DNA of 64,000 nucleotides from Pezizomycotina sp. ARF18 (taxonomy: Eukaryota; Ascomycota), in assembly GCA_002224055.1 (NCBI GenBank), contig AZLU01000056.1, forward strand, positions 62,001 to 126,000, in the 5' to 3' direction. Made by a program: the position numbers and the translations under genes. Position 1 is the stretch's first letter. Every line of letters begins with the position of its first letter. The notes beneath the pieces were generated by a model. It was not told the origin of the DNA. It worked only from the letters and a program-made list of their open reading frames with translations, and did no database searches. Below, piece by piece: positions 12,941 to 64,000 of the stretch.

Positions 12941-15900
12941 ATGGGATCAGATAACGATTCCGGATCTGATGCATTTAGAGACGACGACGATGATAACGAA
13001 GAGACAATGGTGGCTACGATGCTAATGACGACCCAACCCACACAAAAGATTGCTAGCGAGACAATTCCAACCCAAAAGATGGCTCCGGAAACGATACCCA
13101 CTCAGAAGATGGCCTCTGAAATGATACCGACGCAAACAATGATACCGACGCAGCTAATACCCACGCAGAAAATGGACACCAGTAATGATGATACCCTTAG
13201 ACCGAACGACGACGAAATATACTCCTCATCACCTCCGGCAACGGTGCCTACCCAGCTTATAAACCAACCCGTGGTGCAGGTTGCCGCCTCATCCCCTGCA
13301 AAACCCCATCAACAACAACCACACCCATGCGCCTTCCCTATTCGAAAGCTCCCGGGGCAAACAACAACATCCGTCGTCGCCATCGTCTGTAATCTCTGAT
13401 TTTAAAGTCAGCGATAGCCTCTCGCAATACCAACCCTTTCGACAAGCTGGAGTTTCCGCCCCCAAACCGAAATCAGGCCTGTCCGGCACGATAACATCGG
13501 CGGCGATGGAGGGCTCCGGCCTTAGCAATTCTACGCTTGCGACCACAGCTACGACGGCACCGAAAAGATCGCCGACAATAGATTTGACGAATGATGCAGC
13601 GGTGCCTTACGTAGCGTCGTCGGATCCGAGGAAGACAGCGCGGGCAATGCTATACCGTCTAGCACCTTTTTCAAAAGCAAAATCCAAGAGGAATCTTCAC
13701 TTGATAGGATGCGCAACTTGACGGGAAAGTTCTCATACAACGGTGCAAACGGTAGTCAGGGATCCGGAACCTCGTCACAGGGACCGTCACAATCGAAGTC
13801 GCAGCAGCAACAACAGCCTTCGTACATCGCTCGAAGAAGGTTGCTCAACATGGTCCACAGCTGTCTAAGAGACCGCACTACGACATCAGCAAGCTAAATC
13901 CGGTCTTGAAGAAGCATGTTAGTGACCTGAAGCAGACTTTTCCGAATTTCGACGAAAACTTCATCCTTCAATCACTCAATGAGGCGAAATCGAAGTACAA
14001 TGATGCGCTGGACGCGCTACGTACACTGGAAGACGGTGCGAAGCGGCTCCAGGTCATAGTGCCTCACATGAGCAACGAGACCATCTATAGGGTTTTATGC
14101 GAAAAGAAGAACTTTGATGATGCAGCTGACGAACTGCTGAAACTTGACGAAGGAGATGATGATTTGGTCGAGATAGAAAGGCCGCCGAGCTTTGTCGAAA
14201 AGTCGTCCAAGCGAAATGTCGATAAAGCTCCGAAGCGGACAGTTATCGAAAAGTTCTCTGCGACACAGCATCGGCATGATTCGCCCTCCTTCCTCTCCGC
14301 CACCTCAATCTGCTGCTCCCGCCGTGGCACCAGCACGGAGACGGCTAGTTAGAGGGGCTGATCGGGATAAATCTGCCTCAAAGCCATCGACAACCGATTG
14401 AAATCGATAGCTCGCCTGCCGTGTCCGAGGAGAGGACTCGGAAGCTGAAGAGCAAGAGGAAGAAGACGCCGTGACAGAGTGGGAGGTCATCAAGCTCATC
14501 AACGAGTCCGACTTGCCCAAGCTGCAGGACTCGCACCGGCCATCGCGAAGGAAGACCTTCAAGCTGTCCTAGACGCTGGGCCATTTGACTCCATGGATCA
14601 GCTTCGAGAACTTATCGTTTCCAGCGCGACGAAGAAAGGCACGAAGACTAGCAGGAGGAAAATCGGCGAGAGGGTTGCGAATTCGGTCATGGAGACGTAC
14701 ACGGGCTTACGCGCCGTCGATATCGTCGTGGAGAAGTGTCTGAAGATGAGCGAACGGGCGAGGGGTTATCACATCGTGGGGTGGAAACATTCACAACGGC
14801 GAGCTGAGGATCGTAGATGTGCCGTCCGACGAGACGATAGCTGGGAGGCAGCAGGACTCCGGCATTGGAACGCCCTCTAATGCTGGCGAACCTAGTCTAC
14901 GTAACTCGGTATTATCGTCCGATCCGATCGAGGCGGATATTCAGATTACCTCCGTGCGGCGGAAAATTCACAATTTCATTAGGACACAGCCTGAGTCCGT
15001 TGTCGACGGTATTTCGCTCAAGGATTATCAAATGGTTGGCTTCAATTGGTTATATCTGCTGTTCAAAGAAAACCTCAGCTGCATCCTTGCGGATGAAATG
15101 GGTAAGCGATCCCTTTCTATCTTCATTTATATTCACAAATGGGATATTATTAATCTGGCTCCTTGACAGGTCTTGGAAAGACGTTTCAAATCATCGCTTC
15201 CTGGCGTACTTGAAAGAACAGAACATTCCGGGTCCCCATCTCGTCGTCGTGCCCGCGACAACGCTGGAAAATTGGCTGCGAGAGTTTAACAGGTTTGTCC
15301 TAATGTGCATGTCGAGCCTTACCACGGTACCGCCGCGGAACGCACTACGCATCGCGACTACCTACAGCGGAACCGGAACTTTGATGTCCTAGTCACAACA
15401 TACAGCATGGCTCAAGGTGGGAAGGGAGGGATGCTAAGCAGGATGCGGCATTCCTTAAAAGCTTCCCTTGGAATGTATGTACCAATATCTCTTTAAATAA
15501 TGGATTTGTGACTTATGCTAACTTCTGACGCTTTGTAGGTTGGTGTATACGACGAAGGCCACATGCTAAAGAACAGCAACTCCGCACGGTACCGCGCCAT
15601 CGCCAAGATACGCGCGAAGCACCGTATCCTCCTCACCGGAACGCCTATCCAAAACAATCTGCAGGAGCTAGTGTCGCTTTTGGCTTTTCTTTACCCCACG
15701 TGTTAGTGACCACCAGGAGGAATTGGGTGCCGTGTTTAAATTCAAAGCGTCCACGTCGGACGCGAACTCGAACAACAGTGCTCTGCTCTCGCAAGCAGAG
15801 ATTAATAAAGCTAGGAATATGACGGGCATCGTTATCCTACGGAGGCGGAAGGTAGACGTGCTGAAATCTTACCGCCGAAGGTTAAGGAGATACAGTACTG

Positions 15901-17287
15901 CGATATGACACCTTCGCAGAAGGAGCTTTACGCATCGCAGGAGGCGGCTGTAAGGAAGATGATACTGGACCGGCAGTCGGGCGTTATGGGTCAGAGGGAT
16001 AGCCAGTCGAATGCGCTCATGCTGTTCAGAAAAGCTGCGCTGCATCCGTTGCTGTTTAGACGGTTATATACCGATGAGACCGTTGCGAAAATGGCGCTCG
16101 CGCTCTACAACGATAAAGCGGACTTTAATAGCCTCGGCGACCGTAATCTGGACTACGTCCGCGAGGACCTCGAGGTCATGACGGACTTTGAGCTAAACAG
16201 GTACTGCAGAACCATGCCGCGCGTGCTAGGCAAGTACGCGCTTAAAAACGAACCGTGGATGGACGCCGGAAAGGTCTTAAAGTTAAAAGAAATATTGCGG
16301 AAAGCGCAGGAGGACGGCGATCGCGTTCTTATTTTCTCGCAGTTCGTAATGTGTCTGGATGTATTGGAAAGCGTCATGAGCACGCTCGGCGTACCGTTCT
16401 TGCGTATGGACGGTTCCACGAACGTGCAGCTCCGACAGGACCTCATCGATCAATACCACAATGAAACGGATATCACTGCTTTCCTGCTGTCGACGAAGGC
16501 GGGTGGGTTCGGTATTAACCTCGCGTGCGCGAATTTGGTTGTTATATTCGACTGCTCGTTCAACCCCACAGATGATCTACAATCTGAAGACCGTGCGCAC
16601 CGCGTCGGTCAGACGAGACCCGTTAAAGTTATCCGGTTGATTTCTAGGGGTACAGTGGAAGAGAGCATATTAAACCTCGCGAACACGAAGATGGCGTTGG
16701 ATAAAAGCCTCAGCGGCGGTGTGGAGGAGGAGACATCAGAGAAGGAAAGCCAGCTTACGGCGGCGAAAGGTGAAGAGATGGTGTTTAATATATGAAGGAG
16801 AAGCTGTTAAGCGGTGGTGGTAGTGATGATAAGGAGGCCGTCATGACGGACCGGGAGGTAGTCGAAGTAATCGACGACGAAGAGGATGCAAATCCGCGGA
16901 AGGGGAAGACGTTGGAAGTTAAACCGGCGGATGAAGATTTACTAGCGCCGGGATCGGGAGGGAGGCGGAGTAGTCCCGCAATACGCCGGCGACGAGCGAG
17001 TTCGACAGCGACGCGTCTGAAGTATCGAGGGTTCAAAGCGGAAAGTGTCCGACGACGACGCTATGGAAGTCGAGGAGAGCACCGAACGATCGTCGAAGCT
17101 ACGGAGGCGGAATCCGCCATCTAATTCGTCATCGCAGAAAACAGCGACTCAGAGCTCGCAGAAGACGGTCACGCAGAAGTCTTCTTCCTCTTCTCAGAAG
17201 TCCGCATCCTCGTCGCAGAAATCATCATCGCAGAAGAAAGCTGCTGCGTCTGCTAAGAACGGGAACATTAAGAACTATTTTAAGTGA
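12941..17287 (+). CDS. fun30: SNF2-family chromatin remodeller Fun30/Fft3 (SMARCAD1)
   Basis: Fun30-type ATPases act in heterochromatin silencing and DNA-end resection. The start [12 protein letters not shown] leads into an acidic N-terminus with seven PTQ motifs (about 13030-13260). A CUE-like ubiquitin-binding segment follows ([20 protein letters not shown], about 13915-14170). A helix-hairpin region lies near 14540-14720 ([20 protein letters not shown]). The ATPase core has [17 protein letters not shown], Walker A GLGKT split by an intron (15102-15169), [18 protein letters not shown], an intron at 15475-15538, YDEGHMLKN in the DEAH position as in this subfamily, and [18 protein letters not shown]. 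The helicase C domain (15905-16795) has [28 protein letters not shown] and [14 protein letters not shown]. The C-terminal tail is SQ/TQ-rich and ends GNIKNYFK. At least eight single-base breaks interrupt it; the tail join at 16795 is one of them. Confidence 0.93.
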
Positions 17288-18630: not shown

Positions 18631-21006
18631 ATGCCGCGACCGAAAGGTTCGAAAAACAAACCCAAAGACGCCAACGGGAACCGTCTCCTGAGCACTACAC
18701 CACTAGCAAACACGTCATACGCCTCCACTACCTCCTTCGAATATGGAGTCTATGCGGCAGACTTTGACTCCCTGCCGATGGCTTCCACGAGCCTCAAGGC
18801 ATCATCCCTGCAAATTAACGCGACCGCGACAACGACGTCCACAACGGTGCGCCAGAACCCCAGGAAGAAGCAGCAGCAAAATCACCTACACCCACACTAC
18901 CCCTAATAGAAACAATAACAACACATCGTGAACCACAGCTACTACCACCAGCCCGAGAAATCCATCGAAGAGCTTAAAGAGGAACACGAGCGATGATGCG
19001 CGAGTCGATGCTGAAGCTGAAGCAAGGGTGGGAAGAGATATGCCGGAAGTACGGCCGCGATTTCGACGACGAGGCGGACGAGATCGACCTGCACACGGCG
19101 AGATAACGCTGGACAACGGCCACCTGCGGAACATGAAGGACGACACGCAGGGGAACTACGACGTGGATAATTGGCTGGTGAATACGGACAGCGAGGACGA
19201 AGACGAAGGCAAAGGCGGGAAGCGGGCGGAACAGAGTGGCTCTGGTACTAGTAGTAGCAGTGCGGGTAGCAATAACGCTGCGCTGACGACGCCGGAGGAT
19301 GAAGCTTTAGAGGTTGACGAGGACGAAGGGGAGTTGCAGAGGAGGAAGTGCTTTCGAGCTTGCAGCGTGTGCAGGAGGTTTTGGGCAGAGCTAGCGGATC
19401 AGCAGCGCCGCCGCCACCGCTTTCGCTCGTAGAGAGAAAGGACTTGGTGAAGCGGCCGGCAAGCCCGACTACTCCTGACTCGCTGACGCTGGAGCATGAT
19501 GTTGCGCCGGTAATTGCAGCTGAGAAGGATAGTCAACCGGTAGAGACTGAGAAAATGGAAGAGAAGGGACAGGCCGCCTTCGGCGACAGTTATTGATACT
19601 AACGTCGCGCTGTCCTTCCGGTCACCTGAGAATCGCCTATCGAAGCCTCTGTACCTGTTCGAGAGAGTGAGGCTCCGGTCCGCAAGTGGAAGAGTGGAGA
19701 AGCCGATTACGTTGCCGACGACGCCTCCAGCGGAAATCGAGACGATAGAAGTTGAAATGGAGGTGGATGAGATTGTTGAAAAGAATCTAGAAGAGGATGC
19801 GGAGAAGGACACGGGGAACAGCGTGAGAATGATTCGGGCGAGAAACGCGCAGGAAGATCTGAGAAGAGCGTTAGCATTACGGCCGCCACCTCGGATAGCC
19901 CCGAAGGACCTGGTGAAATTACTCCGCATGAACTTCTCCAACACCCCAACCGGAAATCGTGCCTCCGGATCCTCCCGTACCTCCCTCTGAGCCGGTAGCT
20001 GAACCTGAAAGCCTCCCCAGGAGCTGGTGCAGGAGCCTGAACCATCCGAAGAACCTATATTACCTAATGAGCCTGACATCCTTGAAAACCCGAAGAACCC
20101 GAAGAGCCTACATGGCCAGAAGATTCCGAAATTGCTGAAGAATCCGAGGGGCTTGTCCTATGACGCCGACTACCGCGACTGCCGCCGCCCTATCAGCCGT
20201 TTCCATCTCCCCTAAGGCATCCTTTAATGAAGCCAGGGCGGCAACTCTTCGAAATCCGTCAGAAAGACCAAGAACGTGTTAAGGAGGAAATGCGTCCGAA
20301 ATCCCCGATACCTTCGTCGGAGTCAGCCCCTTCGACAAAACTTCTTAAGGGGAAGGAGAAGGCGGCGCAGGAATCCCAGACGATGACATCTGGAAGATCT
20401 CGGAGGATGACCCTTCTTCGACCCTGAGTGGAATGACCGCCACCCTGACGGCGAACCGCCTGCACACATGTTTCCCCCTCGCCCTAAACCCTATGTTTCC
20501 GTTCCGCAAACTCCCACCCCTCGCTCTACACCTCGACGGACGTCTACGGCTCGCTTTCCAAGTCGAAGCGCAAAGCTTCAGCTTCGAAGAGGAAGAGTCC
20601 GCCGCCGATGCAGATCGTGACGCCTCGCTCTGGCAAGTACTTGGAGCTTATGAAGAGCAGGCTGAGCGTTAAACGTAATAACACTCCTGGCTCTGGCGAA
20701 GTTGACTCTTCACCTCTACGACACACGTTGCGTCAACGGTAGTCGAGAGCGATGATGAGGACGACCTCTCTTTCCTGCTCGACCCTTCCCGGAGTATAGA
20801 TCAGGGGACGAAGCGAAAGCGGCAAAGTCTGGGCGACAGCACCAACCAAAATGACACGAGTAGTGCACGCGGCCGGCGCTTCCCTGGCAAATGGCGATTC
20901 AGACGTTCGCACGCCAAAGAGCGTTAAGCTTTCGTCAAAACCTGCAAAGTGCGGTACCCCTGGCTACCGTTGTCCAAAAGCATTCTGTTTTACCTGCATC
21001 GATTAG
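18631..21006 (+). CDS. scm3: CENP-A chaperone Scm3 (HJURP-like), filamentous-fungal long form
   Basis: Scm3 delivers the centromeric histone H3 variant to centromeres. The start MPRPKGSKNKPKDANGN is an AT-hook-like basic motif. The diagnostic core lies at about 19029-19145: WEEICRKYGRDFDDEADEID, then LHTGEITLDNGHLRNMKDD, joined once a G is supplied. After it come GNYDVDNWLVNTDSEDEDEG, long acidic and proline-rich spacers, and a conserved block (DIWKISEDDP ... DPEWNDRHPDGEPPAH, about 20385-20465). The C-terminus is a cysteine cluster, CGTPGYRCPKAFCFTCID (20950-21006), probably zinc-binding. AT-hook and cysteine additions are known in filamentous-fungal Scm3 proteins. The gene needs about seven single-base corrections in low-complexity parts. 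It follows Fun30 on the same strand; a functional link is possible but not shown. Confidence 0.78.
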
Positions 21007-26400: not shown

Positions 26401-28403
26401 CAATAATTACCATTCAAAAGGATGGTCTCCTAGACACATGAACACACATAGTTCAGAATCCTATCCTAGAAAAACCGGTACTAGTTTATAGCATAAAATA
26501 TAGGCTTAGGGATGTTTTCGTCAATTTATATGACGGGTTACAGCAAACGAAGACGGGGAGATTTGTATAAAATAGACCTTAGGTTTTAAATAGTTTGAAT
26601 TTGTACAGGCACTAGCAGCTTAAAGGATACAGGCCATCTTATAGCGGCAGGGAGAGCAGGCACCCACGCCGGTATACATGGCATAACATTGACGACTCCA
26701 TGGCCCACTCATCACGCCTAATAGATCTAATAGGATCTGAAAGTCACATATAAAGCTCGATTAAAATGCGGGACGAAAAATTGTACTTACCTCGATGGAA
26801 GTATCGCTAAATTTCCCCGCACTATATTACAACCAGTTCCCGTCAAGCGATACATCAGGCGCCCTTATGAATTGGAGCTGGCTATCGAGTCCACAGGACG
26901 CATTTGTCATCGTTTGGTTTTTCTTTAGGAATTATTCTTTAGCCAATCAGGCACCACGTTCACACAATAAAGAAGGAGCAATCACGCTTATTCAATGAAT
27001 AGTCTGCCATGCCCGGACTGGGCTTATTGCTACTAAGGATTATCGAGAAACCGTAGACTGCCCTGAATATACAGATCTATTAGAAGAATACCACCATTCT
27101 AAACAATAGGGAGGCCATACACCCTAACACCTTACAGAAAGTTGGAGCCATAATCTCAATCAGTGATAATTTGACCAGTGGTCACGACTGCGTATGATAG
27201 CTATCACACTACACTCGGTTTCTAAAAGCGAATGCGCAATATCTTATTACTAGAAGATATCAACGTTTAAGTAATTTGAAAAGCTCATCATTGTCCTAAA
27301 CCTCAAAGAGCAAGGACCCGGGTGCGCAGTTCTACACAGGGTTGTCAGTGATTGGCACCTACTTACTGTTTGCTCTTTTCTTAATAAACCTAGAAACTAA
27401 ATCTCTTCTAATGCGTATCAACAAACCTTCCAAGAAAACGAGAAACAACGGAATGCTTTACTCTACGGGATATTTCTCTTTATGTCCTTCACAAAATCCG
27501 TATACTACCTATCAAATACTAGTCTCCACTGCGAGGTACATCCCATCTTGACTAACGATATATGATGTAGGATTTCTATAATCAGTTGAATATCGTTTTG
27601 ACGAAGTTATTAGCACTAGTTCGCGACGCGGACTTAGATAAATATAACTTTGACTCGGATGACTTACAGCACCAATTATTATAAACCAACTTATGTAGTA
27701 ACGGTGAAGCAAGAATTAAGGTAATGGTTATTACGACATCTTTAAATTTTGTACTTTGTAGGTCGCTCAATAATCTGTCTGAATATCCAGGGATAAAGCG
27801 TAGTATGCCGCCGAGAGTTTTATGCATGTAGACAGCTCTGATAATCCTTCACAACGACCGGTAATATCGAACTTATATTATAATCCTTCATCAGAGAAAA
27901 ATTCGAAAATAAAGTACCTCGTTGAAATGTAAAATATGGTTACAGACAAACTTAATACGAAGAATGCGGCCATAGTTAGTTTTTTATAAGTCTACAATTA
28001 TAGACTTGGGTTTTATGAACGTAGGTAGGATACAATATTAAACAAATTTTCTATTTGAGGAAAATACTTTCATATGATCCCGCGCTTAGTTCCAATATCA
28101 ATTCTTTTCACTTTAGGATAGGAAACAAATATGTTTAGATAAAATCGGACGGTAATATTAATTGAAGATACTCGTAATAGGCTGAAGTATAATGTATTCA
28201 ATATTTTTCATCGTGTGAAAATTATTGGCAAAAAAAAAAAAAATAAGGAAAGAAAGATGAGAGCAATAATCACACATTGTGAAGATAAAACGATCTACTT
28301 GCCAAGCTCTTGCTAGGAAAGAAAAAGACAGCACGAGTCAGTTTATTGACGACGTCAAAGAATTATTTATAGACATGACGAGAAAAAAAAAAAAAAAAAG
28401 AAC
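23495..28403. other. AT-rich gene-free block
   Basis: After a promoter-like 350 bases, about 4.5 kb (23850-28380) shows no protein similarity on either strand. Open stretches are short, and TA dinucleotides and interrupted A/T runs are frequent. This texture is typical of ascomycete DNA altered by repeat-induced point mutation, in which a former repeat is worn past recognition. No terminal repeats, target-site duplications or protein remnants could be found, so no element family is named. A simple AT-rich spacer remains possible. Confidence 0.55.
28383..28400 (-). terminator. Pol III oligo-T terminator of the tRNA gene
   Basis: A + strand A run, read as T on the minus strand, starts about four bases after the tRNA 3' end, as expected for RNA polymerase III termination. 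Confidence 0.75.
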
Positions 28404-28490
28404 GACCGATGTCGGGCTCGAACCGACGACCTTATCTTTGAACACAAGTTCTAATAGGAGAGATACGCTCTACCACTGAGCTAAACGGCC
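28404..28490 (-). tRNA. tRNA-Arg (anticodon CCU) with a 16-base intron
   Basis: The minus strand folds as a full cloverleaf. The acceptor arm GGCCGTT (28490-28484) pairs with ATCGGTC (28410-28404) with one U-U mismatch. The D arm is GCTC-AGTGGTA-GAGC and the anticodon stem is TATCT/AGATA. The T arm is GTCGG-TTCGAGC-CCGAC with perfect pairing. The anticodon loop reads CT-CCT-A, then an intron (28454-28439) in the canonical place after base 37, then A38. That gives anticodon CCU, decoding AGG. A run of 18 T on the minus strand just past the 3' end is an RNA polymerase III terminator. Anticodon and intron place are both usual for fungal tRNA-Arg(CCU). Confidence 0.92.
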
Positions 28491-48139: not shown

Positions 48140-50538
48140 ATGGCTGCTATCAGTGTGGTGCTGGCGCCACTGGTAGTCTTCCTGTTTGTAAGCCACACTC
48201 TTGCGCTATCTAGCAACGAAATTTACAAAAGAGCAGACCTCGAGCCGATAATCTTCGACGACATTATCTACAATGTACATTGTTTTCCCCATATCCATTC
48301 TTAGTTTCATTTGTTCCGAGGTAACTGACATTATTTTCATAGGAACGGGAAGGGGGCCAAATGGCTCGTGTTTCTGTTGGTACGCCTCTCAATATAACCA
48401 ATATGTTGGCTTATGACATACCAAATGTTGCGTTTGAGCTAACAACATCGGCGTATAGGAACCCCTCCACAGGATATATGGCTATCCTTATCGTTATCTG
48501 AAAACACATGGATAGGCATGTCGATACCGGGTATTCCAAGCTTAATTGCAGCGACGAAACAACGTATCGGACGAAGTGTATGATCCAGGATATGTCTGGA
48601 GCCTGTAAGTGGAATTTAGTCCAGGATATAATTTAAGGATGACGGAATCGAGTCCTCCTAGAAAGTATTTAAATATATACTAAAGATCGCAATGTTCAAA
48701 TAGACGCACCGCAGTCTTCCTCAAGCTACCTCAACCTCACGCTATATCCTCTCCTGTATCCTCGGTCGGCTCCGTACCATCAAGAGTCCGATGCGGTAAG
48801 GATGGTTGTGCCTTCCTATAAATGATTACAAGGGTTACTGACTTTTAAAGACCACTTACGCTTTCTTGGAATACGCAATGGAGTCTTTTGAGTTTAGTGG
48901 ATCGAAGGTAGGTAAATCCTTTCTTTCCGTGCTGTATAGATCGCCTTTTCCTCTTTTTGATATTAGAATTGACGTAAGTTCGAGCGTACGAAAAGTTCAA
49001 CAACCTCACCTTTACCATTGCAAATAACTATTCCGGGTATTACCCTTCTCTCGGCTTAGGTCCGAGCTGGGATGCGCCAAATCCGTCCTTCATCGATAAC
49101 TTTTCAAATAATGGGCAGATCGCTCTTAGGGCGTTCGGGGCGTACTTGAATGATTTTAGTATATCCCCTTTAAAAAAAAAAATTCTTAAGAACAAGTTAC
49201 AAACGCTCTATGGGTTGGTAAATCTGACAGAAAGGGTTTAGGAACTAACAATTCCGAACTCCATATTGGCGCCGTCGACAGGTCAAAGTATAGCGGTAAT
49301 TTCACGACGCTAAACGTTCTTACCAACACCACGAATGTTGCAAGTATAGACTCGGTGTTTTGGTTCGATGGGAGTTTAAATTCAAGTACGAGTTCGACGT
49401 CAAATCTGGGGCAAGGATGGACTTCACAGATAGGTATTTGCATTAATATAGTATTGATATGAATTGGATTGCAGTAGTCCTGACCTCTATTGCTTGCTTG
49501 CAGTTATATAACAATCTCTACCTCTGATAAATCTGGCATTTCGACCTGATAACGAAAGCATTGAAAGCCACTGAGCGCGCGGATACGGGCACCGGGGCAC
49601 CTTCGTGGACCACCTCCTGCGACTTTCGCGACAGCAACCAACAATTTTCTTCTCTATCGGCGGAAACTCTCCTTTAGTAATCAGTATACCGGCTACACAG
49701 CTTATTCTCCCGGATATTGATGAGTATGGAGTGCGTCTCAAATTAGATGATGGCTCACCCTCATGTAAAATCTACATAGCGCAAATGCCGTCCGATGGAA
49801 CGTGGGACATCAAACTCGGCGCGCCGTTTCTAAGATCTGCGTACATGGTGTACGATTTCACGAATAAGCAGTATAGCATCGCAAAAGCTGTTGTAAATGC
49901 AACAGGCGAGAGGGATATCGTACCTTTGGAGAGGGGCGGGGTGACGCAGACGCCCGCGCTATTGTTAGCTAGGAATAGTACGAGGTCTTCAGGCGGGTTG
50001 GGTGGTAACTCCACATCGACTTCCGAAAGGAACAATGGTAATAAGTTAAAGAGCAAGCAAAAGCTATCGCTCATTGCAAAGGTCGCCGGTGCAGTTGCAG
50101 CAGGGATCGGGTTATCTGTTTTCGTACTTGTACTACTGATCAAATGGAGGAAGAGAAAACTAGCGAGACTGCCGGCTCACCAACATCCAGATCAGTATGG
50201 AAAGATGGAACTGCCTGCCGGCTTAGTAGCCCACGACCACCATTGATACCTATACTCAAGCGTTTCCCGCGTATCAATGGCTTCTTATGGAGATTAACGG
50301 GCGGTGATCCCAGGGAGAAGCGTATGTAGAGCGTAAGGTGGAACTGCCGGCGTCACCACCAAGGGTGGTCCGTGATCATCCTCCGCGTAGGCTCCAGGTG
50401 CCCTGGCTCAGGATAGTGCACGTGCGTCGGCGCAGCTCGCCGCCGAACGTAAAGCTGCTTCCGGCGTTACCGCCTGGCTACCGGTATCCGCATACTTCGT
50501 GGTATAAGGAGGATTGTTTGGAATTGGACGGCTCGTAA
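48140..50538 (+). CDS. Pepsin-like (A1 family) membrane protein lacking the first catalytic motif
   Basis: The start MAAISVVLAPLVVFLFVSHT is a signal peptide (ATG 48140-48142). After introns the fold marker VSVGTPPQDIWLSLSLSENT-WIGM appears. VGTPPQ is the classic pepsin N-lobe motif, but the D-T-G-[ST]-S-x-L-W position reads SLSENTW, so the catalytic aspartate is absent. Later exons give GYYPSLGLGPSWDAPNPSFI, N-glycosylation-rich stretches, LGAPFLRSAYMVYDFTNKQY and SIAKAV, the usual C-lobe end. A Ser/Asn linker and one helix (AGAVAAGIGLSVFVLVLLI) with a basic stop-transfer KWRKRK follow. The cytoplasmic tail includes KMELPA and, if the frame changes near 50250, KVELPASPPRV to 50538; without that change it stops at 50246. 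Many short introns and several breaks. Probably a binding or scaffold protein, not an active protease. Confidence 0.65.
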
Positions 50539-52343: not shown

Positions 52344-53811
52344 ATGAGACAAGCACTACCTACTTCCTTGCGGTCATCGAACGCACTACACTCGCTTTAC
52401 TTATCTCTTTTCTTTTCTCTTTCTTTATTTCGAGATGCTGCGGCCAGAGTGCAACAGGTATTTCACAAACATTCGCGCAATGTTACGATGAGTGTGGTGA
52501 TGCCCTGGCAAAAGGCAGGCAGTCGGACTCACAAAAGAGGCATGCGACCCAAAAGGATCTTTCCAACAACAGCTGTCAATATGCGAACGATGTCTGAAGG
52601 AAAAGGGATTCGATATGGCCACCGAAGATCCGGATCTTATTCAGTATATCGACTATTGTGACAGTAAGCACAACGGCTCGGCTATATATACTCTTAAACT
52701 CAGATGCACTAACTCCTTGTAGAGAAATCGAGTCCAACTATACAGCTAGACAGCTTCGAAACCAACGAACCTACATCCACGGGCGATTCAGACAGGAGAC
52801 CGTTTCCGGGAGCACCGGCGATAACTCCCACTAATCAAACCTCGCAGCAGCAACAGCGGCAACCACAGGCGTCGCCGTCAGGGATGCCGTGCCAACCTTT
52901 CTTCTGCAACAGCGCGCTCGAGAACTGGCTAGTCTTTGTCAAGTACCGTGATATTTCGACAGCGATATGGGATGCCACAACATCAGCAACAGGGGGAAAT
53001 GCATGTCCTGCAAGACTGCTCTAAGATTCCCGTTGCCTTAAAGTACCGCAGAACGTCACCGATCTTTGAACTCCTGCACCGCCCTCCTAGCCAAAACGAA
53101 ACCGCAAGCGCCAACGGCACAGCCGCAACACGCGCATCCGATCAACTCGCTGCGGCCAGCAGAACAAAGGACCAAGCTCGAAGAAAATCGGCAGTATACT
53201 GGCCGCAGTAATAATAATATCCGTCGCGGGGGCCGCGTTCGGAGCTTACATAGTCTACCGGAAAACGAGGGGGAAACATTTGGAAGACGCGCCAGACCTG
53301 CCGCCACCGGCGGTCTCCCATACGAAAAGCGTCCGGCAGACGTTATTTATGCCGGAACTCCCGGGGACCCGCATCAGCAAGCGGTTTTGTACGGAACCAT
53401 TCAACCCCGTGGAGATGGATAGCCAGCAGCAGCCAGCTGAGGAACCCCCGCCCTCGTTATCCGAATCGCCCCCCTTCGTGGTTGAACTTGAGGGAGACAG
53501 ACCGTGGGAGCAGAAGCGGGGAGGCGTTCTCTTCATTAAGGAGTGAGACCGATTCGATATACTCCCTCTATTCGAGGACCGATTCGCTGTACTCGCTGTA
53601 TAACAGGGCCGACTCTGTGCTCTCGCTGTATTCTTGGTCGGATTCGGTGTACTCGATGTTTTCGAGGACCGATTCCATATACTCGATGCATTCGATAACT
53701 CAGAGCGAATACCCTGCTCAGAGCGAATATTGGGAACTTGAATATTTGATGGATATTTTTAGTTGTTTGGGTTTTCTTGTCATGTTTTCTTTCCTTTCTT
53801 GTAAATCTTAG
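52344..53811 (+). CDS. Cysteine-module single-pass membrane protein, array member 1
   Basis: From ATG 52344 comes a signal-like head (SLYLSLFFSLSLFRDAAA). After a shift the first cysteine module follows: FAQCYDECGDALAKGRQ, then EACDPKGSFQQQLSICERCL and DLIQYIDYCD. A phase-1 intron (52664-52722) lies just after this last cysteine. Exon 2 holds a Thr/Pro/Gln linker, then a second, shorter module (CQPFFCNSALENWLVFVKYR, then after a shift CHNISNRGKCMSCKTAL). The transmembrane helix is IGSILAAVIIISVAGAAFGA with stop-transfer YRKTRGK. The cytoplasmic tail has FVVELEGDRPWE and, over one more shift, the Tyr/Ser 10-residue repeats at 53548-53697. At least four single-base breaks. Family not recognised; homologous to the other array members by module, intron place and tail motif. 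Confidence 0.65.
53548..53697 (+). repeat. Five 30-base tandem repeats encoding Tyr/Ser decapeptides
   Basis: Five abutting copies begin at 53548, 53578, 53608, 53638 and 53668, each exactly 30 bases. They encode units such as TDSIYSLYSR, TDSLYSLYNR and SDSVYSMFSR, pattern [TAS]-D-S-[ILV]-[YL]-S-[LM]-[YFH]-[SN]-x. They differ at several bases each but keep length and frame, which suggests selection for the peptide. They sit at the end of the cytoplasmic tail of array member 1. Confidence 0.85.
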
Positions 53812-56231
53812 CATTAGTTTAATGAACCGGTAGCTTAATAAATCGCTGTTTAATATTTAATTTTAAAAGTTTAAGTGCGAAGATCTCGTCGAGTTGTTCC
53901 TCGTCTATACCACCAACTGAAACCCCCTTACAACCTAGTATTTGTTACTAGTTCTTGGTATACGTGTCTTACAAAATCAGCCAACGCGTCTATTTGCCAG
54001 GCTGAGATGAACATAGACTATTGCGTTCAGACGCCTCGGCTGCTGCTATGTAACAACACACTTGAGATAACAAAATCCGGATTCAGAGTGTTTTGGTCGC
54101 CAAAAATGAAGATAGTTTTGCTATTTGTCCAACCTCGTGAGCGAAAACGACTTGGTATTTTAGGACTTTTGCAGTGAACAACTGTGAAAAGATGAAGTAG
54201 GCTTTTTTGTGAGCCAATGCATTGCTCGAATGGTCATCGTAACCGCTGCCGTTAAATTTGAAACAAGTCATCACATTTTCGCCGCCATCTATCCTCAATA
54301 TATCGACAATATGTTGACAAAAACAGCAAAACCTCTGGTTTCAGGGAATGCTAACTAAAGAAGATCGAAACTCGCGGGACGAAAGACTGATAGATTTTGA
54401 ATTAAGACACGAAAAACTTACCATCACGACATTCTTGAGGGTGATGAAAGAGCTTGGAAGACTGCTTGTTAAGTTTCGCGTGCTTATTTAACTCGTTCAT
54501 TGTAAAACTCATGTGATACTTTATTCTGTATTCCAAGTACTTATGGTTTATGATGGGAGCTGAACCACGCCGCGACTTGGAGTATTTCCGGGACACCGCC
54601 ACTAGAATCACTGCAACGTCAGACTCCATAACTATATCCTTTGCAACAGACAACTTTGCCACGTTAACGTTCCATCTGTTCCGCATTGTTTGGAAACGAC
54701 CATAGGATTATCCTAGCCCCTGAGGCCGACTACGTTGAAGGAGGAAGCAAACAACAATATACTTGTAACCCAGTGATTAGTATAAGAATCTTACCTAGAA
54801 CCTCGTCTCATGGTATTTCGTCTGCCTCCATGTTTTCTCAGATCTTACCAATGTTTAAGATACGTATTCTCACTCGAAAGGCTCGCCGCCATCTAGAACG
54901 AATCCCAATGGAGAGCCATTTGCCAACCTCGAGAGAACGGTGGGGATTTCCATTGGCCTAAATAGTTTATCCCTGAAGCAACGGATCTAGAACTGTTGGA
55001 ATATCCAGAAAACGTGGAAAGCGTTATAGGGTACATAAAACGCGCAGGGCTGCTCCTAAGGGTCTTAACTAGGTGGCGAACGTGAAAACGCCTGAATTAG
55101 CGAGCGGGAAATGGCGGTGGATTAATCAAATTTTTATTCAAGGGCTACTAGAAGTAAACACTGTGCATGCATGCTGTTGTCTTTTCCCCTTTACCTTCCT
55201 CTTCTCCTTCTTGCACGAAGGCTGGGGAATTGCTATAGTTTTGCTTGCCGCCGATGGTTTTCAGCGCATCCAATCACAAGCGCGCTGTAACCGCACAGCG
55301 GCCGAATTAGGAAATTATTTCGCGTCTAACTTCTACACGCTCCTTTTCCATAGGAGGGATGGATTTTTGTACACGTGCTTTCTAGAATAGATTGTGCTTT
55401 CAAGTAGGCTGTCGATGACTGAGATAGGGGCATATCGAGAAGCGAGAGCCTTGCCTCGGCCTCGTGGGCTCGCTAAGCGATATGAAGCGGCGCTCGAGAA
55501 TTCTTAGAAGTTCTTCAAGCCTTTTGAACGGTCTTCGGATCACACAAGATCGCGCGATACTGGCTGCCAGATTTGGAATTAATATGACTTGAGACTTCTC
55601 CTGGTATGGATGGTATTCTGTCGTGTAGCCGTATGTACGGCATCAAATAGCTCTTTTGCCCTCTATATTATACATATCAAAGTATTGTAAGTCTCGTGCA
55701 ACGTTTGTTGTTCTCTCTTCGTGAAATTTTGAAAGGGTACTCTCAAATACGTGTACAGATTACAAGTCCGCAAAGCTACATAGTCCGCGCCTCAGCGCTC
55801 ATGAAAATGAGGATATATAGGGTTGTCTAGATCCTGCAGCAGAAAAGTGAAATTCTTCTATTGATTCGCGCTAATAATGATTTGCCATGGTGTTGTGGAT
55901 CGGACAGAACGGAACGCCACCAACAGTCACCCGAACCGCCGGGAGACTAACGCCTTCTGTGGATTTTCCGTATATCGTGTCCCCGCTCAAAGTTGGGCCA
56001 CGAACCAGAAAACTTCACTCTAGGGCCCCAACTTCAGTGAATAAAGGAGATGCGCAAGAGGCTAGCAACTAATGGGTCTTTGCGCTCCTTATTTTAATGG
56101 GTTCGTATCCGGATTTCTATCCTTTTCTTACTAGCCAAAGAATCAAGTTTTGATTGCCTTCTCTTCCAGCTTTTATTATCATCATACTGTAAAAGTCTCC
56201 AGAAAACGGCCTTCTCAACTACTCAGCAGAA
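53812..56231. other. AT-rich gene-free spacer within the array
   Basis: About 2.4 kb. Open stretches at 53875-54177, 54402-54686, 55073-55390 and 55887-56072 show no cysteine module, helix or other feature and are not called. Confidence 0.5.
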
Positions 56232-57266
56232 ATGAAAGCATCATTGCCCAAGACTTACTGGCTTCTGCCATTCTTTCGACTCCTCATATTGCTCCTGGCC
56301 CTTGATTCGCTCACAGCACCTCAATGCCATGCGGCAGCTGTACCACAGATCAACAGACTGGATGCAAATCCGCAGCAAGTAGATAGTTGCATCGACAATC
56401 ACGCCAGCTTCTGCCTTAGAAACTGCAGCCTCAGGATTTGCGTCTACTACAAACAGCTCAAGCCTTCCTCGTTCTGTGGGAGAAGGTTTTGCAGCATGCC
56501 AAAATGTGTGCTCTGAGACCCAAAGGCGCATGAGTTCCTTTGTATGCACCCTTCGACATGCGATGCGAACTTTCTCGCAGATGTGACTTGGTGCGGATCA
56601 TGCATCCAGCAAAATTCCGAGCTCGCTAAGCTTATCGACCAAAAAGAGACAGAAGAGTATGCGGCTTATTGTCAAGGTAAAGACATATTCCGTGACTTTA
56701 AATACTAATACAAGTATGATATATATTAGATCGTAATACTTCAGCGACTTCTTTTGCTAACTTACATGTCGCAGATACCGAGAAGCAAAACGGTGGTGAA
56801 ATTGCCATGCCACTGACCCTTATCCTCCTCGGCGCGGTTTTTATCATCCTGTCAATATTTTTCATACATTGGAGATGGCGGTTGCGCCTGCAAGCGCCGG
56901 TCGAGCAGGTGCCGACTTTCTCGGATTTCTTCGAATATTCCAAAGCCGATAGATTATCCATGGGACACGTTAGCCCAGTAGAAATAAGTCCGCCTCCTTG
57001 CACGTATAAGGCCGAGTGGCGCTTCGACACGTGGAAGTCTGAGCTCCCTGGCCTGATGGATTTTCCCCCCGAGTTTGAACGCCATCAAAGAAAATATTGA
57101 AGTGTATCCGAACGCGCTTGAATTAATTTGCGGAATGTGGCGATATAGAATCAATTTGTCCTTAGAACAAGTTTATAGAGTAGGCGTGGCGTGTGCGTGC
57201 CTTCGTATTTTTTTCGATGTTTATAATTTTTGTCAATCCTTTCGCTTTAACTTCAGGACATCATAA
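56232..57266 (+). CDS. Cysteine-module single-pass membrane protein, array member 2
   Basis: ATG 56232 starts a signal peptide (LLPFFRLLILLLALDSLTAP, QCHAAAVPQ). After a shift a Thr/Ser linker leads to the module GFAACQNVCSETQRRMSSFV-C, then ACDANFLADV-like sequence (TCDANFLADVTWCGSCIQQN) and ETEEYAAYCQ. A phase-1 intron (56677-56774) splits the next codon, G|AT. Exon 2 begins DTEKQNGGEIAM, then the helix PLTLILLGAVFIILSIFFIH and stop-transfer WRWRLR. The tail contains RFDTWKSELPGLMDFP. One frame stops at 57100; with one base changed in the C run at 57065-57070 it continues PSLNAIKENIEVYPNALELI in line with member 3, so 57266 is given as the outer limit. Closest relative in the window: member 3. 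Confidence 0.65.
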
Positions 57267-57645
57267 TAATTTTAATTTCGTTGCCGCCCTTAGTATTCTG
57301 GTTAGCCAATGATAAGCCCGCTAGAACCGTTCGTGACGAATTTGGAAATGGTAATACGCGTCTAGATCGATTTGGCATGCTCCTGACCCCGAACAGAAAT
57401 ATATTTAATTAAATAAGACAGCTATAGATCCATGTGGAACATATTGTATCTAGATATCCATGAGTAAAAAAGTAGACATCACGGTTAAGGACAATAGCAA
57501 GCGATATGAACGAGCGCTATCATAATTTCCCAAGAGTTCTTTAGACTTTCTAAACCACAGCCTTCCGCCTACCAAAGTTGTTTCCCACTTTTATACGATA
57601 CTGGAGTGCAAACTATATATAGCATCGGTTATAGCGTTTTTTACG
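57267..57645. other. Short AT-rich spacer
   Basis: Between array member 2 and the degraded copy; no coding content. Confidence 0.5.
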
Positions 57646-57879
57646 TTGGATCAGGATATAAACAGCATCTATAGAGCAACATGGGAAAGTTCTAGCGAGG
57701 TTCGCTCTTCAGCGTTGGTAGATCCAGCGGATAACCTCGACTGTCAAAACATGTGCACATTCTTCAAAAGTCACGAGGCTGCGCTTACCAGCTTTGGATA
57801 CGTAGAAGGCTGTGTATATACAGGTGCATATTCCGCAGCTGAAAAAGTTAACTGCTCATTTATACCTTCATGCCAATAA
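57646..57879 (+). pseudogene. Degraded array member with an isolated cysteine module
   Basis: An open stretch without ATG reads LDCQNMCTFFKSHEAALTSF, GYVEGCVYTGAYSAAEKVNC. This has the C-x3-C, a middle cysteine and a later cysteine at the spacing of the other members, but no C-x2-C pair, signal peptide, helix or tail was found nearby, and stops follow at once. I read it as a remnant copy of the array family. A distant exon of a larger gene cannot be excluded. Confidence 0.4.
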
Positions 57880-58212
57880 GACTTATCAATCGTGTCATGA
57901 AAAAATACGACGGAAACGCCACTGCAGCAGCTAGTAGATTGATTAGCCGCCCCTGCAGAGACATTGGATATCGTGTCACCACTGAAGAGAACCGGGAAAT
58001 GAACGCATCGAAAACGTGTTGTTGGTAAACAGGTAGAGCATGCGAGGCTAGCGCTCTAAACGGGTTGATAAATCTATTTGATCAGTGCATTGTCCCGGTT
58101 TTACTTAGATAAATCTCACTGATGGAGTGTTTCTCCCTTGAGGGCTCCTTTATGGTATTTGCTGTATATATTTACGGTCTCTCAAACACCCTTGGAGAAT
58201 TGTCCATTGAAA
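57880..58212. other. Spacer upstream of array member 3
   Basis: Stops occur in all frames near 57900-58030; no gene is called. Confidence 0.45.
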
Positions 58213-59421
58213 ATGGAGTCGCTCTTCGCTGGTCGTCTGAATCTTTCTCTTTCCTGTATCAGCCTTCTCTCGTCCTTTTTATACTCGAGTTATTTTCAAT
58301 ACAATGCCAGGCGGCAGTCATTTCAGCAGGGCAGATCAGACCACGCATTATTGTATCTGCTTCATCGACCAGGACACGACAGTCCACATCACTATCGCCA
58401 CAATGGTTCGGTACGGTGCTCCCAACAATGGCACCGCCACAGGCTCCTACGATGATGTCTATGGTTACAACTGGGGCAGAAGAACTATTGGCGTCACAAT
58501 GGTTCGGAACCGTGCTTCTAACAATGTCGGTTCCACCGCCTGCTATTATGACTGCTGAAGGAACAGTAACATCCCAGCTGGGTACCGAGACCGCCGCCGC
58601 GGACACAGATGCTTCTAGTATTACAAAGGTCGCCTCTGCTACACGAACGCTTGATTCTTCCATAGCAACAACCCAATCTACACCGACGACTTCCCCTAGT
58701 CTCAACTCTGTAGGACCTGGCCCATCTTGTGAAGATAATTGCGCGAGAGCACAACAACATATCCAGTTCATTGGCATGAAAAATTCGTTGTGTAACAACA
58801 ATTTCTTGGGAGATGTTTCTGGATGCGAATCATGTATCAAGCAGAATCTGGATTTGACCTCTTTGTTTGATTTTCAGAGGCTGAAGGAGTACGGCACATT
58901 CTGTAAAGGTATTGATACATACTCTCCAACGCCATTGTTCATCTAATTCCTTTAAACGCCGTTTTATAGATAGGTTTGTAGGTGTCAACTCTTCTAACTT
59001 TTAGCAGATCCGACGAAATACAGAGCAAAAAAATAGGTATCCCCGTCGGGCTCAGTTTATTAGGCACTTTATTTACCGGCATTTCGATATTTCTCCTGTA
59101 CAAAAACGCCGACAGCGTTGGCAAACATTCAAAGAGAAAGTACCACGTTTCGCGGAGGTCTTTAAATATCCAAATATCATTATTGACAGAAAGTCAATCG
59201 CCAACACCAAGCCGATCGAACCGGAAGCACTTGCAGACTCGCCCGGTCCTGAGCTGATTTTCGATACGTGGAGGTCCGAGCTGCCAGGGTGCACGAATTT
59301 CCCTTCAGAATTAAGCGCCGTGAAAGATCCAGTAGAACTGGAGGCGAACAATCACAAGGTATTCGAACTTGAAGGTGACACGCCCATTTGCACCTGCAAT
59401 AAGGGTAGAGTTTTGTTATGA
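58213..59421 (+). CDS. Cysteine-module single-pass membrane protein, array member 3
   Basis: The likely start is ATG 58213 (MESLFAGRLNLSLS), followed after a shift by a hydrophobic core LVLFILELFSIQCQAAV that resembles member 2 around the QC[QH]A cut site; an in-frame ATG at 58122 is the alternative. A Thr/Ser stalk with an internal duplication follows (QWFGTVLPTMAPP and QWFGTVLLTMSVPP). The module is GPSCEDNCARAQQHIQFIG, LCNNNFLGDVSGCESCIKQN and LKEYGTFCK. A phase-1 intron (58909-59007) splits G|AT. Exon 2: DPTKYRAKK, helix IGIPVGLSLLGTLFTGISIF, then the tail with IFDTWRSELPGCTNFPSELS and KVFELEGDTPICTC, ending at TGA 59419-59421. Single-base breaks near 58260, 59033 and 59205. Confidence 0.7.
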
Positions 59422-60308
59422 CACTAGGCCGACTAAGTTTGGGATGGCTAGACGTCAGCTCTAAAATCATTGCATTCTTGTCATTTACATTTTCATTTCT
59501 TCTACATAGATTAGACGCTTGTAGAGTAGATTTTATGGTTCCTTTAGCGTCTGCATTGTAGCTTTGTTTGGGTTTAAGTCGTTCAATATAATAATGTACG
59601 ATCTAAAGGGAAATAAGCACATGGAAGATGGAGAAAAACGCGTCGACAGGAAATATATAAATGCGAGTAATTGGAACGAATGACTGAACAAATTGGCCTT
59701 CCTTTCATCCGCACCAGAAAACGCAGAATTCGTCTTTCAGATTTCAAGTTGTGAATTTCGAATTTCTCGGGGTTTGTGTTCTAAGCGCCGTGACAGAGCT
59801 TGCCACAGGCTTGTCCACTGCCGAACGCCACCAACTTTTGTTTTGCAGATCTGCGTAGATGCTCCTGCAAAACAAATTAATCAAGCTAATAAAATCACTA
59901 TCTGGAAAAAATAGAAGCTAATAATACCGCAAGGCTGGCGATTTCGAAGGCGCGTCTCCTTCCAAAGATATATAAATGACCCTATGTTCGCGAACATTGC
60001 TTCGAGAAGCATAGGATTCCTTTTATTTATTTATTTTTTTCTAGGAGATCTTCATGGCAACTAAGATATTGTTCTCAACATGCGACAGGATGCATCCTAG
60101 TGCAGTTTTAAAGCTACGAATTCCTTACTTTTAGATATTTTCAATCAAGAACAAACTTCAGTTGGTTGCTTGGGGTTCCTTTCGCAACTCCTCCGTCCTC
60201 TCTTCTAGCGACGCGCCTTCATTGTCCTTCCGATTCGGATTTTCAAATCTTGATAGTACCAACATTTACAAAACCACATTTACCGTTTAATGCTTCCCAA
60301 TTTATGCC
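59422..60308. other. AT-rich spacer between array members 3 and 4
   Basis: A TTTA run lies near 60022-60041. An open stretch at 59693-59914 has no recognisable content. Confidence 0.5.
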
Positions 60309-61211
60309 TTGAGAGTTCACTGTACTCACGAAGTAGGGGGACACGACTGTGTAACCGAATATTTTACCTCGTTTGACCCAAATTCTATCTCCTTCAACAT
60401 TTTTAATGCTCTGCAAAACCCCTTAGCATTCATACTACAATGGCGGATCTTAGGGGAAATGGACTATCCGAGTGGCACCTCAATTCAACCACTCCTACAA
60501 CAATGGGACTTCCCACATAACAGCAGTTTCTTCAGCAACGTCAAATGTCTTGTCAATAAACTTACCCTCGGAGACGACACCTTCACCAATACCAACATTC
60601 AACCCTCCGAATCTTCTACTTCATCCTTTCTAAACTGCGAATACAGCTGTAGAACGGGTGGACTGTGGTCCACCATCGAGGGTGGTTCGGACTCAGGAAT
60701 GTGTAAAAGCTTTTTAAGAAACCCGCAGCTTACGATTTGTAATTCCTGCATAAACCAATATAACTACACTGGCGGCGGCTTCGACAAAATCCGGCGCGTT
60801 GAGTCTTTCTGTCAAGACTGGGAAAACAGTATTCCTTCAGATAGCAGTCTCAAGAGAACGCTCGCAATAGATATAGGTCTTCCGTTCGGTTTTCTTACGC
60901 TTGTAAGTTTGGGAGCTTATGCATATTGGCTGGTGAAAAACTATAAATTCAGATTGCCGTGGGTGAAGATGCGATTAACGGATCCACCAGAGCCGCCTCC
61001 GATACCGGTATGGGGAGTAGTAGGAGTGACCAAGTATCCAAAAGAGTTAGATAGTGTGCGTAGTCCGCGCGAAATGGAGGGCAACAGCCCATTAGCTCAG
61101 GAACTGGAAGCTCAAGGGTCAATTAGTAAATTTTTCCGCTATAGTCTTTGGAGAAGAACCGTTCATGAGCTCGAAGGAGATTCGCCGCGGACCCAGGGTG
61201 ATGATCCGTAA
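60309..61211 (+). CDS. Cysteine-module single-pass membrane protein, array member 4 (intronless)
   Basis: One uninterrupted frame of 300 codons. It opens at a TTG, so the true start, and any signal peptide, is unresolved; a frame change or an upstream exon may supply it. The module reads SSFLNCEYSCRTGGLWSTIE, GMCKSFLRNPQLTICNSCIN, VESFCQDW. The C-x3-C, C, C-x2-C and FCQ-D landmarks match the family. Here FCQD is continuous, so the phase-1 intron of members 1-3 is absent. The helix is IGLPFGFLTLVSLGAYAYWL with VKNYKFR after it. The tail has PREMEGNSPLAQELE and TVHELEGDSPRTQGDDP at the stop, giving one exact ELEGD and one close variant. No breaks are seen after the module, unlike its neighbours. 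Confidence 0.7.
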   Translation: MRVHCTHEVGGHDCVTEYFTSFDPNSISFNIFNALQNPLAFILQWRILGEMDYPSGTSIQPLLQQWDFPHNSSFFSNVKCLVNKLTLGDDTFTNTNIQPSESSTSSFLNCEYSCRTGGLWSTIEGGSDSGMCKSFLRNPQLTICNSCINQYNYTGGGFDKIRRVESFCQDWENSIPSDSSLKRTLAIDIGLPFGFLTLVSLGAYAYWLVKNYKFRLPWVKMRLTDPPEPPPIPVWGVVGVTKYPKELDSVRSPREMEGNSPLAQELEAQGSISKFFRYSLWRRTVHELEGDSPRTQGDDP

Positions 61212-62026: not shown

Positions 62027-64000
62027 ATGGCGGGCGGCGGTTCTCAGCTCAAGAAGCTCAAAGCTTCCTTGAAGGCGGCAGGCGTGATCGGGCAGCCTCA
62101 GCTATCGAAGAAGGCGAAGAAGCGCCAGCAGGGTCAACGTTCCGCTAGCAATTCCCGTCTCGATAGGGAGGCGGCGCTGGAAAGCATTAGGGCCGAGTTC
62201 AACCGTTCGACGTGAAGAAGACGAGGCAGAAGTACGACATTTCCGGCCGCGGGAAATCAAGGAGCGCAGGGGAATCCGGCGTTGAGCAAGCAGGTTGGAG
62301 AGGAGAATGTATGTGTCTACTCGTCGCTGTCTTTAATAGGTCGTACTGGCTGGAGTTGAGCGACAATCGCTGACTTTTTGGGCGCAGAGGAAAAATACGT
62401 TGCTGGTAGAAATGAAGAAGCGGAACAGGGCCGGCGAAATCATCGACAGACGGTTCGGAGAGAACGACCCAACCATGGACCCGAGCAGAAGATGCTAGAA
62501 CGTTTCACCCGAGAAAGGCAGAAGCAAGCAAGGAAGGCGGACATCTTCAATCTCGAGGACGACGATGTTCTGACACACTACGGCCAGTCACTCGGCGCCT
62601 CTACGAACAAGTCACTGCTCGACGATTTCCAGGAGAATGATCTGGCGGTAGCAGCGATGACGACGGCGAATTCATGACTCGTCGGAAAGAAGGCCGCATC
62701 ATACCAGATATCGCCAACGGAGACGGCGAAGAAGGCGAAGATGGTAGTGACGACGAAGGACAACCAGCGCGCAAGAAGAGCAAAGCGGAGTTATGAAGGA
62801 AGTCATTCTGAAGTCTAAGTACCACAAATACGAACGGCAGAAGCAGAAGGAAGATGACGAAGATATTCGCGAGGAACTTGACGCGGAGCTGGATACTATC
62901 CGGTCGCTGCTTGGTACCACTGCCAAAGCTTCCATGAACAGGGCTGCTCCGCCGCCAGCAGCCCAGCTTGGGTCATTGGAAATGAATCCCGAGCGTCGTC
63001 AACGTATGGAAGAAGATATCGACGTTGATGCGAAATACGATGCAGCTGTGAGAGAAATGACATTCGACAAGAGGTCCAAGCCGGCGGAGAGGACGAAGTC
63101 TGCGGAGGAATTGGCCCAGGAGAAGGCCGAGCAGCTCCAGAAGCTTGAAAAAAGAGGCTGAAACGCATGCGCGGTGAAGAGGACAGCAGTGATGAAGAAT
63201 CGTCACGGGAGACAAAGGATGACTCTGGCGTAGAAGATGAGGACGAATTCGGGCTGGGGGAAGGAATCGGACTCGCAGAGGAAGAGCGCGAGTTTATTCA
63301 CGACGAGGATAGCGGCTCGGATTCAGGCTCATCGTTTGGAGATTTAGATGAAGCTCCAAAGACCAACGGCATTGGAAAGCCAAAGGTAATGGACATGGTA
63401 AAGTCGCGGTGGCGAATGGAGACGACCTTGAAACAAATCTCGACTTTGACTATGACTCTGCATCCGCGGAATCGAGAGACGATGCTGGTAACGAAGAATG
63501 GGAGAGCGCTGAAGAAGAGGGTGTCGAAGATGCAGGAGAAGATGACCTGACTCGAGAAGCGGAAACCAAGGATACAAACACGTCTTTATCTTTTACGTAT
63601 TCGTGTCCTGCATCCCACGAAGAGTTCATGAAAATCCTCAGAGATGTTAAGGCTGAAGACATCCCAATTGTCGTTCAGCGGATACGTGTACTCCATCATC
63701 CATCACTCCACCCGGATAACAAGAGCAAGCTCGAGGTAAGCCATTGAACAGTTCTAAACTCATAAGTTTCACAATATGCTGATCCTGATTCCTATAGAAA
63801 TTCGTGCCCATCCTCCTGGAACACATCCTTTGGCTCTCCGACAACACTTCGCCGATTCCTTTCCCCGCCATTGAGACACTTATCCGTCATCTACACAGTC
63901 TTTCTAAGCAGTACCCGAAAGCCTCCGCAAATGCCTTCAGGGAACACATTATCAAAATCAACGCCGAGGTATCAGACTCATTGCAGCAAAGACGGCCGAG
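62027..64000 (+). CDS. NOP14: Nucleolar protein Nop14 (SSU processome), 5' part
   Basis: Nop14 is needed for 18S rRNA maturation and 40S assembly in the nucleolus. ATG 62027 gives MAGGGSQLKKLKASLKAAGV. An intron at 62309-62387 (GTATGT ... CAG) precedes RKNTLLVEMKKRNRAGEIID, RFGENDPTMDPEQKMLERFT and RERQKQARKADIFNLEDDD, the family core. Then come LTHYGQSLGASTNKSLLDDF, an acidic stretch, VILKSKYHKYERQKQKEDDE, DIREELDAELDTIRSLL and REMTFDKRSKPAERTKSAEE. Acidic Ser/Glu runs lead to FTYSCPASHEEFMKILRDVK. A second intron at 63736-63797 is followed by KFVPILLEHILWLSDNTSPI. The gene runs past the window end. Single-base breaks near 62210, 62255, 62660, 62790, 63160 and 63400. Confidence 0.93.

Follow-up and report, generated by a model that had tools for sequence, protein, structure and literature searches.

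A locus-restricted family of predicted stalked membrane proteins with a cysteine module in Pezizomycotina sp. ARF18

Four genes stand in a row on the + strand of one contig of the fungus Pezizomycotina sp. ARF18 (gene 1, 52344–53546; gene 2, 56232–57100; gene 3, 58213–59421; gene 4, 60459–61211), and the question they raise is whether they are relatives and, if so, what kind of protein they specify. Each appears to encode a stalked membrane protein with a small cysteine module; their sequences have diverged strongly, and three of them cannot be read in a single frame. Judged by sequence, the four are paralogues of one ancestor, apparently confined to this locus, and the broken frames are likely to be errors of assembly. 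The window—the whole stretch of DNA that was analyzed, 64,000 nucleotides in length—comprises bases 62001–126000 of contig C56 (AZLU01000056.1; 217,452 bases), in an assembly of 46.4 Mb and 408 contigs, and coordinates are those of the window unless another contig is named.

The module and the kinship of the four genes

The cysteines are spaced C-x3-C-x16-C-x10-C-x2-C-x22-C in the module of gene 3, which is intact (58728–58904), and C-x3-C-x17-C-x11-C-x2-C-x20-C in that of gene 4 (60636–60812). In genes 1 and 2 the second interval crosses a frame break—in gene 1 (module at 52481–52659) the first C-x3-C lies in one frame and the remainder in the next—and the second halves read C-x12-C-x2-C-x21-C and C-x10-C-x2-C-x22-C, respectively. 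All four modules thus have C-x2-C as their fourth and fifth cysteines, a last interval of 20–22 residues, and [FY]C at the end, and these counts bear out the original prediction of four + strand genes with a module in common. Among the 333,051 residues in six-frame, stop-to-stop segments of at least 20 residues from the contig, less 2 kb, the complete six-cysteine pattern occurs in genes 3 and 4, in one poly-cysteine stretch, and nowhere else.

Genes 2 and 3 form the closest pair, at 40–44% identity. Searched against the whole assembly, their modules match one another at expectation values (E) of 2.7e-9 and 2.3e-10, and their tails at 2.0e-7 and 4.6e-7, with no third place reported in either case. 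(The gene 2 module query runs a few codons into an intron; likewise, the pieces of genes 2 and 3 used for alignment A1 enter their introns by 17 and 6 bases, and that of gene 1 stops just short of its last cysteine.) Profiles built with one member left out were run against the contig, translated in six frames and divided into 7,078 segments. The module profile found gene 3 at E 4.9e-13 and gene 2 at E 1.1e-9, and the tail profile found gene 3 at E 5.5e-4 and gene 4 at E 7e-4, each as the best match outside the training set. Since the tail profile made without gene 4 finds gene 4, this gene joins the family too.

Gene 1 is the most distant of the four by score, and we include it nonetheless because it shares an intron position and a tail motif with the others. 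In genes 1, 2 and 3, a phase-1 donor lies exactly 4 bases past the last cysteine codon, with a CTAAC branch site and then an acceptor downstream. The introns, as assigned, occupy 52664–52722 in gene 1 (59 nt, CTAAC at +45), 56677–56774 in gene 2 (98 nt, CTAAC at +80) and 58909–59007 in gene 3 (99 nt, or 96 if the nearer AG is used; CTAAC at +85); gene 4 has no intron at this position. Intron-like strings of this kind, as defined after the three had been seen, start at 319 of 430,606 contig positions. The motif ELEGDxP occurs three times among the 333,051 residues, where composition predicts 0.005 occurrences, and all three are in tails of the array: ELEGDRP in gene 1 (53484–53504), ELEGDTP in gene 3 (59365–59385) and ELEGDSP in gene 4 (61167–61187). 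A second tail motif, DTWxSELPG, is common to genes 2 and 3. Within the window, moreover, the second half of the gene 1 module has two matches at E ≤1 other than itself, and these are the modules of gene 3 (E 0.065) and gene 4 (E 0.87).

Several of the scores weigh against so inclusive a family. When left out of the profiles, the tail of gene 2 scores E 1.4 against a background of 1.6; the module of gene 4, at E 0.2, ties with a background match; that of gene 1 is the best match outside the training set, but at E 0.91, level with a background of 0.94; and the tail of gene 1, at E 11, falls beneath two background matches. Gene 4 and the gene 1 module piece, each searched alone against the whole assembly, match only themselves. 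The gene 1 tail finds one other place in the assembly, on contig C166, at E 0.3; this locus (L030), by eye a generic serine-, threonine- and proline-rich (S/T/P-rich) stretch with a transmembrane (TM) segment, we judge unrelated and reject. It is also the sole outside match to the eight protein queries taken from the four genes, which disclosed no further member in the 46.4 Mb; since the first look of each query yielded no more than one or two candidates, diverged relatives at other places may have escaped detection.

Genome-wide search, leave-one-out profiles, intron position and tail motif together uphold the earlier claim of local duplication followed by strong divergence. That the family is fast-changing seems a reasonable surmise from the identity of its closest pair and from the lack of database homologues for gene 4 and the gene 1 piece, a comparison made within this one genome. 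A fifth member, proposed as a remnant at about 57.7–58.0 kb, finds no support, and we reject it: it is absent from the nine family-profile matches listed, its best match in the window other than itself is unrelated (E 0.56), and the CQNxC start that it shares with an other-frame piece of gene 2 is too little to go by.

Reading frames, broken and whole

Module, helix and tail lie in one open frame in gene 4 only. Genes 1–3 shift frame at several places, with no space for introns; the breaks in gene 3 fall in the signal region, at a run of seven adenines (about 59030) and at a run of five (about 59104). Taken at face value, this describes an array in decay, in which genes 1–3 are pseudogenes and gene 4 alone still works. 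We rejected this as the first reading on the strength of two control loci, and consider it improbable.

The first control is NOP14, immediately to the right of the array (62042–64000, and on to about 65014), an essential gene in yeast. All five matches to the Pfam NOP14 family reported for the assembly are at this single locus, with no other copy found, and it is broken into many frames. When aligned with NOP14 of Arthrobotrys, its pieces overlap while changing frame near 62,780 and, at a run of six adenines, near 63,150, and there are looser frame changes elsewhere, such as at about 62,640 and 63,400. The second control is a tubulin gene, which we take to be of the beta type, on the minus strand of contig C143 (L033, about 79,760–79,290); it passes through three frames across a conserved, glycine-rich stretch. 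Since NOP14, at the one locus where it was found, and a tubulin show the same kind of breakage, indels introduced during assembly are the likely cause of the breaks in genes 1–3, rather than decay. Genes 1–3 also retain splice sites with CTAAC branch sites, and two of the gene 3 breaks fall at adenine runs, neither of which suits pseudogenes. On the other side, the evidence of indel error comes from just these two control loci.

The original prediction was silent on the broken frames, and on the equally broken NOP14 next door. Because even NOP14 and a tubulin are affected, gene models of this assembly are unreliable, and genes called ‘pseudogene’ or ‘orphan’ from it call for polishing of the sequence first.

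Layout of the proteins and what they might do

Each gene is predicted, from hydropathy and composition, to encode a single-pass, type I membrane protein. In genes 2–4 an S/T/P-rich stretch leads to the cysteine module, which is followed by a hydrophobic helix and then a tail; the S/T/P-rich stretch is long in gene 3, and gene 2 has at least two frame breaks along the way. The single build envisaged for all members holds for these three but not for gene 1, in which, several frame breaks notwithstanding, the module comes ahead of the stalk and a second cysteine-rich stretch follows it, before helix and tail. The S/T/P content of the stalks is 0.34–0.53, against 0.21 in the six-frame background. 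Past the module, 19-residue hydrophobic stretches with Kyte–Doolittle (KD) values of 2.39, 2.76, 1.92 and 1.77 mark the putative helices of genes 1–4 (53196–53252, 56810–56866, 59039–59095 and 60861–60917), the last being borderline. Values of at least 1.8 are also reached by 242 of the 1,499 segments that are at least 60 residues long, so hydropathy on its own is weak evidence for a helix. Signal peptides, earlier assigned to members 1–3, remain putative: hydropathy at the N-terminus is 1.09 in gene 1, 1.94 in gene 2, and 1.31 or 1.93 in gene 3, depending on frame, and it discloses no clear signal peptide in gene 4. Directly past the stop of gene 1, five 30-nt tandem repeats (53547–53695, + strand) encode, in a different frame, a DSxYSxYS-like decapeptide, and this Ser/Tyr repeat is possibly the real C-terminus of the gene 1 protein.

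The module itself, in gene 3 at least, is predicted to be a small helical domain. Modeled from the complete copy in that gene (58719–58914, four aligned sequences), it has four helices, with a mean predicted local distance difference test score (pLDDT) of 79 and a predicted template modeling score (pTM) of 0.60; that of gene 4, modeled alone, reached a pLDDT of 41, and gave no usable model. Foldseek returned 0 matches from the PDB at E ≤0.001 for the gene 3 model, the one member compared, and the VIA scores of that model are only middling.

Pfam was scanned with nine array pieces at E up to 1 and with four module pieces at E up to 10, although the filters built into HMMER discard most matches with E above about 0.1. 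No family reached its cut-off in these pieces; CFEM and WSC did not appear at all, and matches to Commissureless (E 0.17) and to DUF6485 (E 0.016), which fall short of their cut-offs, were set aside. In PMC4530338, the CFEM formula has eight cysteines: PxC[A/G]x2C-x8-12-C...CxC-x9-14-C-x3-4-C-x15-16-C. Like it, the array module is a fungal, extracellular cysteine module that begins C-x3-C, and the spacing between its second and third cysteines is near that between CFEM cysteines 2 and 5, were two to be skipped. One might therefore imagine a degenerate CFEM domain, without cysteines 3 and 4, that binds haem or iron. This is the least probable of the readings we considered: in genes 3 and 4 there are six cysteines rather than eight, no CxC, and C-x2-C and last intervals of 22 and 20 (20–22 in the array as a whole) in place of x3-4 and x15-16, and Pfam finds no CFEM. 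We reject membership in CFEM on these grounds and membership in WSC, too, for want of a Pfam WSC domain and because the order is the opposite in genes 2–4. These Pfam scans and the cysteine formula also support the earlier view that the modules match no named family, CFEM and WSC included.

In a protein database that includes fungi, as the NOP14 control demonstrates, the homologue search covered gene 4, for which 0 of 302 candidates passed E 0.01, and the gene 1 piece, for which no candidate had three shared words. The search depends on shared words of five residues and could overlook distant relatives in other fungi. Similar C-x3-C ... C-x2-C ... YC modules appear to exist in other Pezizomycotina proteins.

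What might such proteins do? We tentatively favor, at somewhat less than even odds, a diverged family, restricted to this locus, of stalked type I surface proteins that may resemble sensors and whose tails carry shared motifs; it would have arisen by local duplication, and its frame breaks would be assembly indels. Local duplication, by unequal crossing-over for example, would have made the genes, which would have diverged quickly since. The stalk, glycosylated, and the cysteine module would face the cell wall and the surroundings, while the tail motifs would dock a common cytosolic partner, such that differently tuned ectodomains feed one internal response, as in stalked wall sensors. Different ligands and one inner partner would fit, because the tail motifs are shared while the outer parts have diverged. 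That the ectodomains vary while a tail motif is shared also offers a testable handle on signaling. Against such a role stand the facts that layout alone suggests it, that the array pieces scanned contain no signaling domain recognized by Pfam, and that the module adjoins the membrane in genes 2–4, unlike in WSC sensors.

The principal rival, unlikely but to be taken seriously, is that these are surface adhesins or wall glycoproteins without a signaling function: stalk and module would stick to substrate, to partner hyphae or to nematode cuticle, and the tail would anchor or sort the protein. The S/T/P-rich stalks suit such a role, and in nematode-trapping Orbiliomycetes candidate surface adhesins, WSC and mucin proteins among them, are expanded or highly expressed (PMC3828140, PMC4237727). 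An anchor, however, would seem to need less than a TM helix and ~100 residues of tail that carry shared motifs. More elaborate, and a long shot, is a receptor-like family private to a lineage of nematode predators, with a membrane-proximal, disulfide-bonded helical domain and a mucin-like stalk, in which varied ectodomains coupled to one partner via ELEGDxP sense prey, neighbors or kin. Slightly less probable again are self/non-self (allorecognition) proteins, polymorphic between strains; the local duplication and divergence of the array are what one would expect of them, but the pieces scanned have no HET, NLR or NACHT-type match in Pfam.

The locus, its fungus and known systems

To the left of the array lies an aspartyl-protease-like gene (about 48140–50246) in several frames, with Pfam Asp pieces at 49190–49459 and 49575–50243, a C-terminal TM stretch at 50085–50141 (KD 2.58) and then a tail with an ELPA motif. 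The description of the array as flanked by housekeeping genes is therefore right for NOP14, on the right, and wrong for this left neighbor with its TM stretch. The AT-rich DNA noted between the genes is real but mild: the intergenic fraction of G+C is 0.395–0.436, compared with 0.452 for the contig. Elsewhere in the window are pieces of an SNF2-type helicase (Pfam SNF2-rel_dom and Helicase_C; 14841–16792, + strand) and a tRNA gene (Rfam; 28403–28490, minus strand).

NOP14 also tells us something of the fungus. A piece of it has 30 matches at E ≤0.001 among 719 candidates in the protein database, the best at 63% identity, and the ten top-ranking entries bear the names Arthrobotrys, Orbilia and Drechslerella. 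All ten belong to the class Orbiliomycetes, and on this account the source fungus is probably in, or near, that class, and akin to fungi that trap nematodes.

Among known proteins, Msb2 has a large mucin domain and a membrane-proximal cleavage domain. The array proteins resemble this type in having a mucin-like outer part, a membrane-proximal domain, one helix and a cytoplasmic tail, and differ in being shorter and in having a six-cysteine module; the comparison is one of layout, not of sequence. Msb2-type signaling mucins are listed in PMC9148135, together with WSC-type sensors, whose S/T-rich, O-mannosylated outer region acts as a spring and whose cytoplasmic tail passes the signal. An S/T-rich extracellular region, a cysteine-rich domain, one TM helix and a cytoplasmic tail are common to these sensors and the array, and stalk, single helix and tail can be discerned in the latter by hydropathy and composition, with gene 4's helix again the doubtful one. 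The difference, beyond the missing WSC domain, is one of order: in genes 2–4 the module is membrane-proximal and the stalk outermost, and only gene 1 is WSC-like.

The nearest parallel might be closer to home. Orphan, tandemly duplicated secreted proteins of Orbiliomycetes have been tied to nematode predation, and for the orphan small secreted proteins of Monacrosporium haptotylum, tandem duplication and then divergence driven by repeat-induced point mutation (RIP) has been proposed (Meerupati et al. 2013, PMC3828140). The thresholds given there are TpA/ApT ≥0.89 and (CpA+TpG)/(ApC+GpT) ≤1.03. For genes 1–4 the first index is 0.80, 0.65, 0.76 and 0.93, and the second 1.13, 1.59, 1.16 and 1.04; gene 4 passes the first threshold only, genes 1–3 neither, and no gene both, so we reject RIP as a visible driver of divergence in the array. 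Neither threshold is passed by the entire contig (0.87, 1.06) or by NOP14 (0.59, 1.21); both are passed in the flank at 20001–48000 (0.91, 0.99) and in the protease region at 48700–50300 (0.98, 0.98). A codon-usage test proved weak and was not used.

The array differs from these orphans, as described in PMC3828140, in that its products are predicted to lie in the membrane, with one helix and a tail, in having six cysteines—the largest orphan cluster there, of five proteins, has 12 conserved cysteines—and in its RIP indices. It is like them in its tandem duplication, in probably belonging to the same class by NOP14, and in keeping its cysteines while much else diverges; it may also be like them in lacking Pfam domains and database homologues, to judge by the pieces scanned and by the searches with gene 4 and the gene 1 piece. 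The array fits the duplication half of the orphan-protein model, then; it is of a kind already known, and it would add a predicted surface-protein family, as yet without a name, to those of the Orbiliomycetes.

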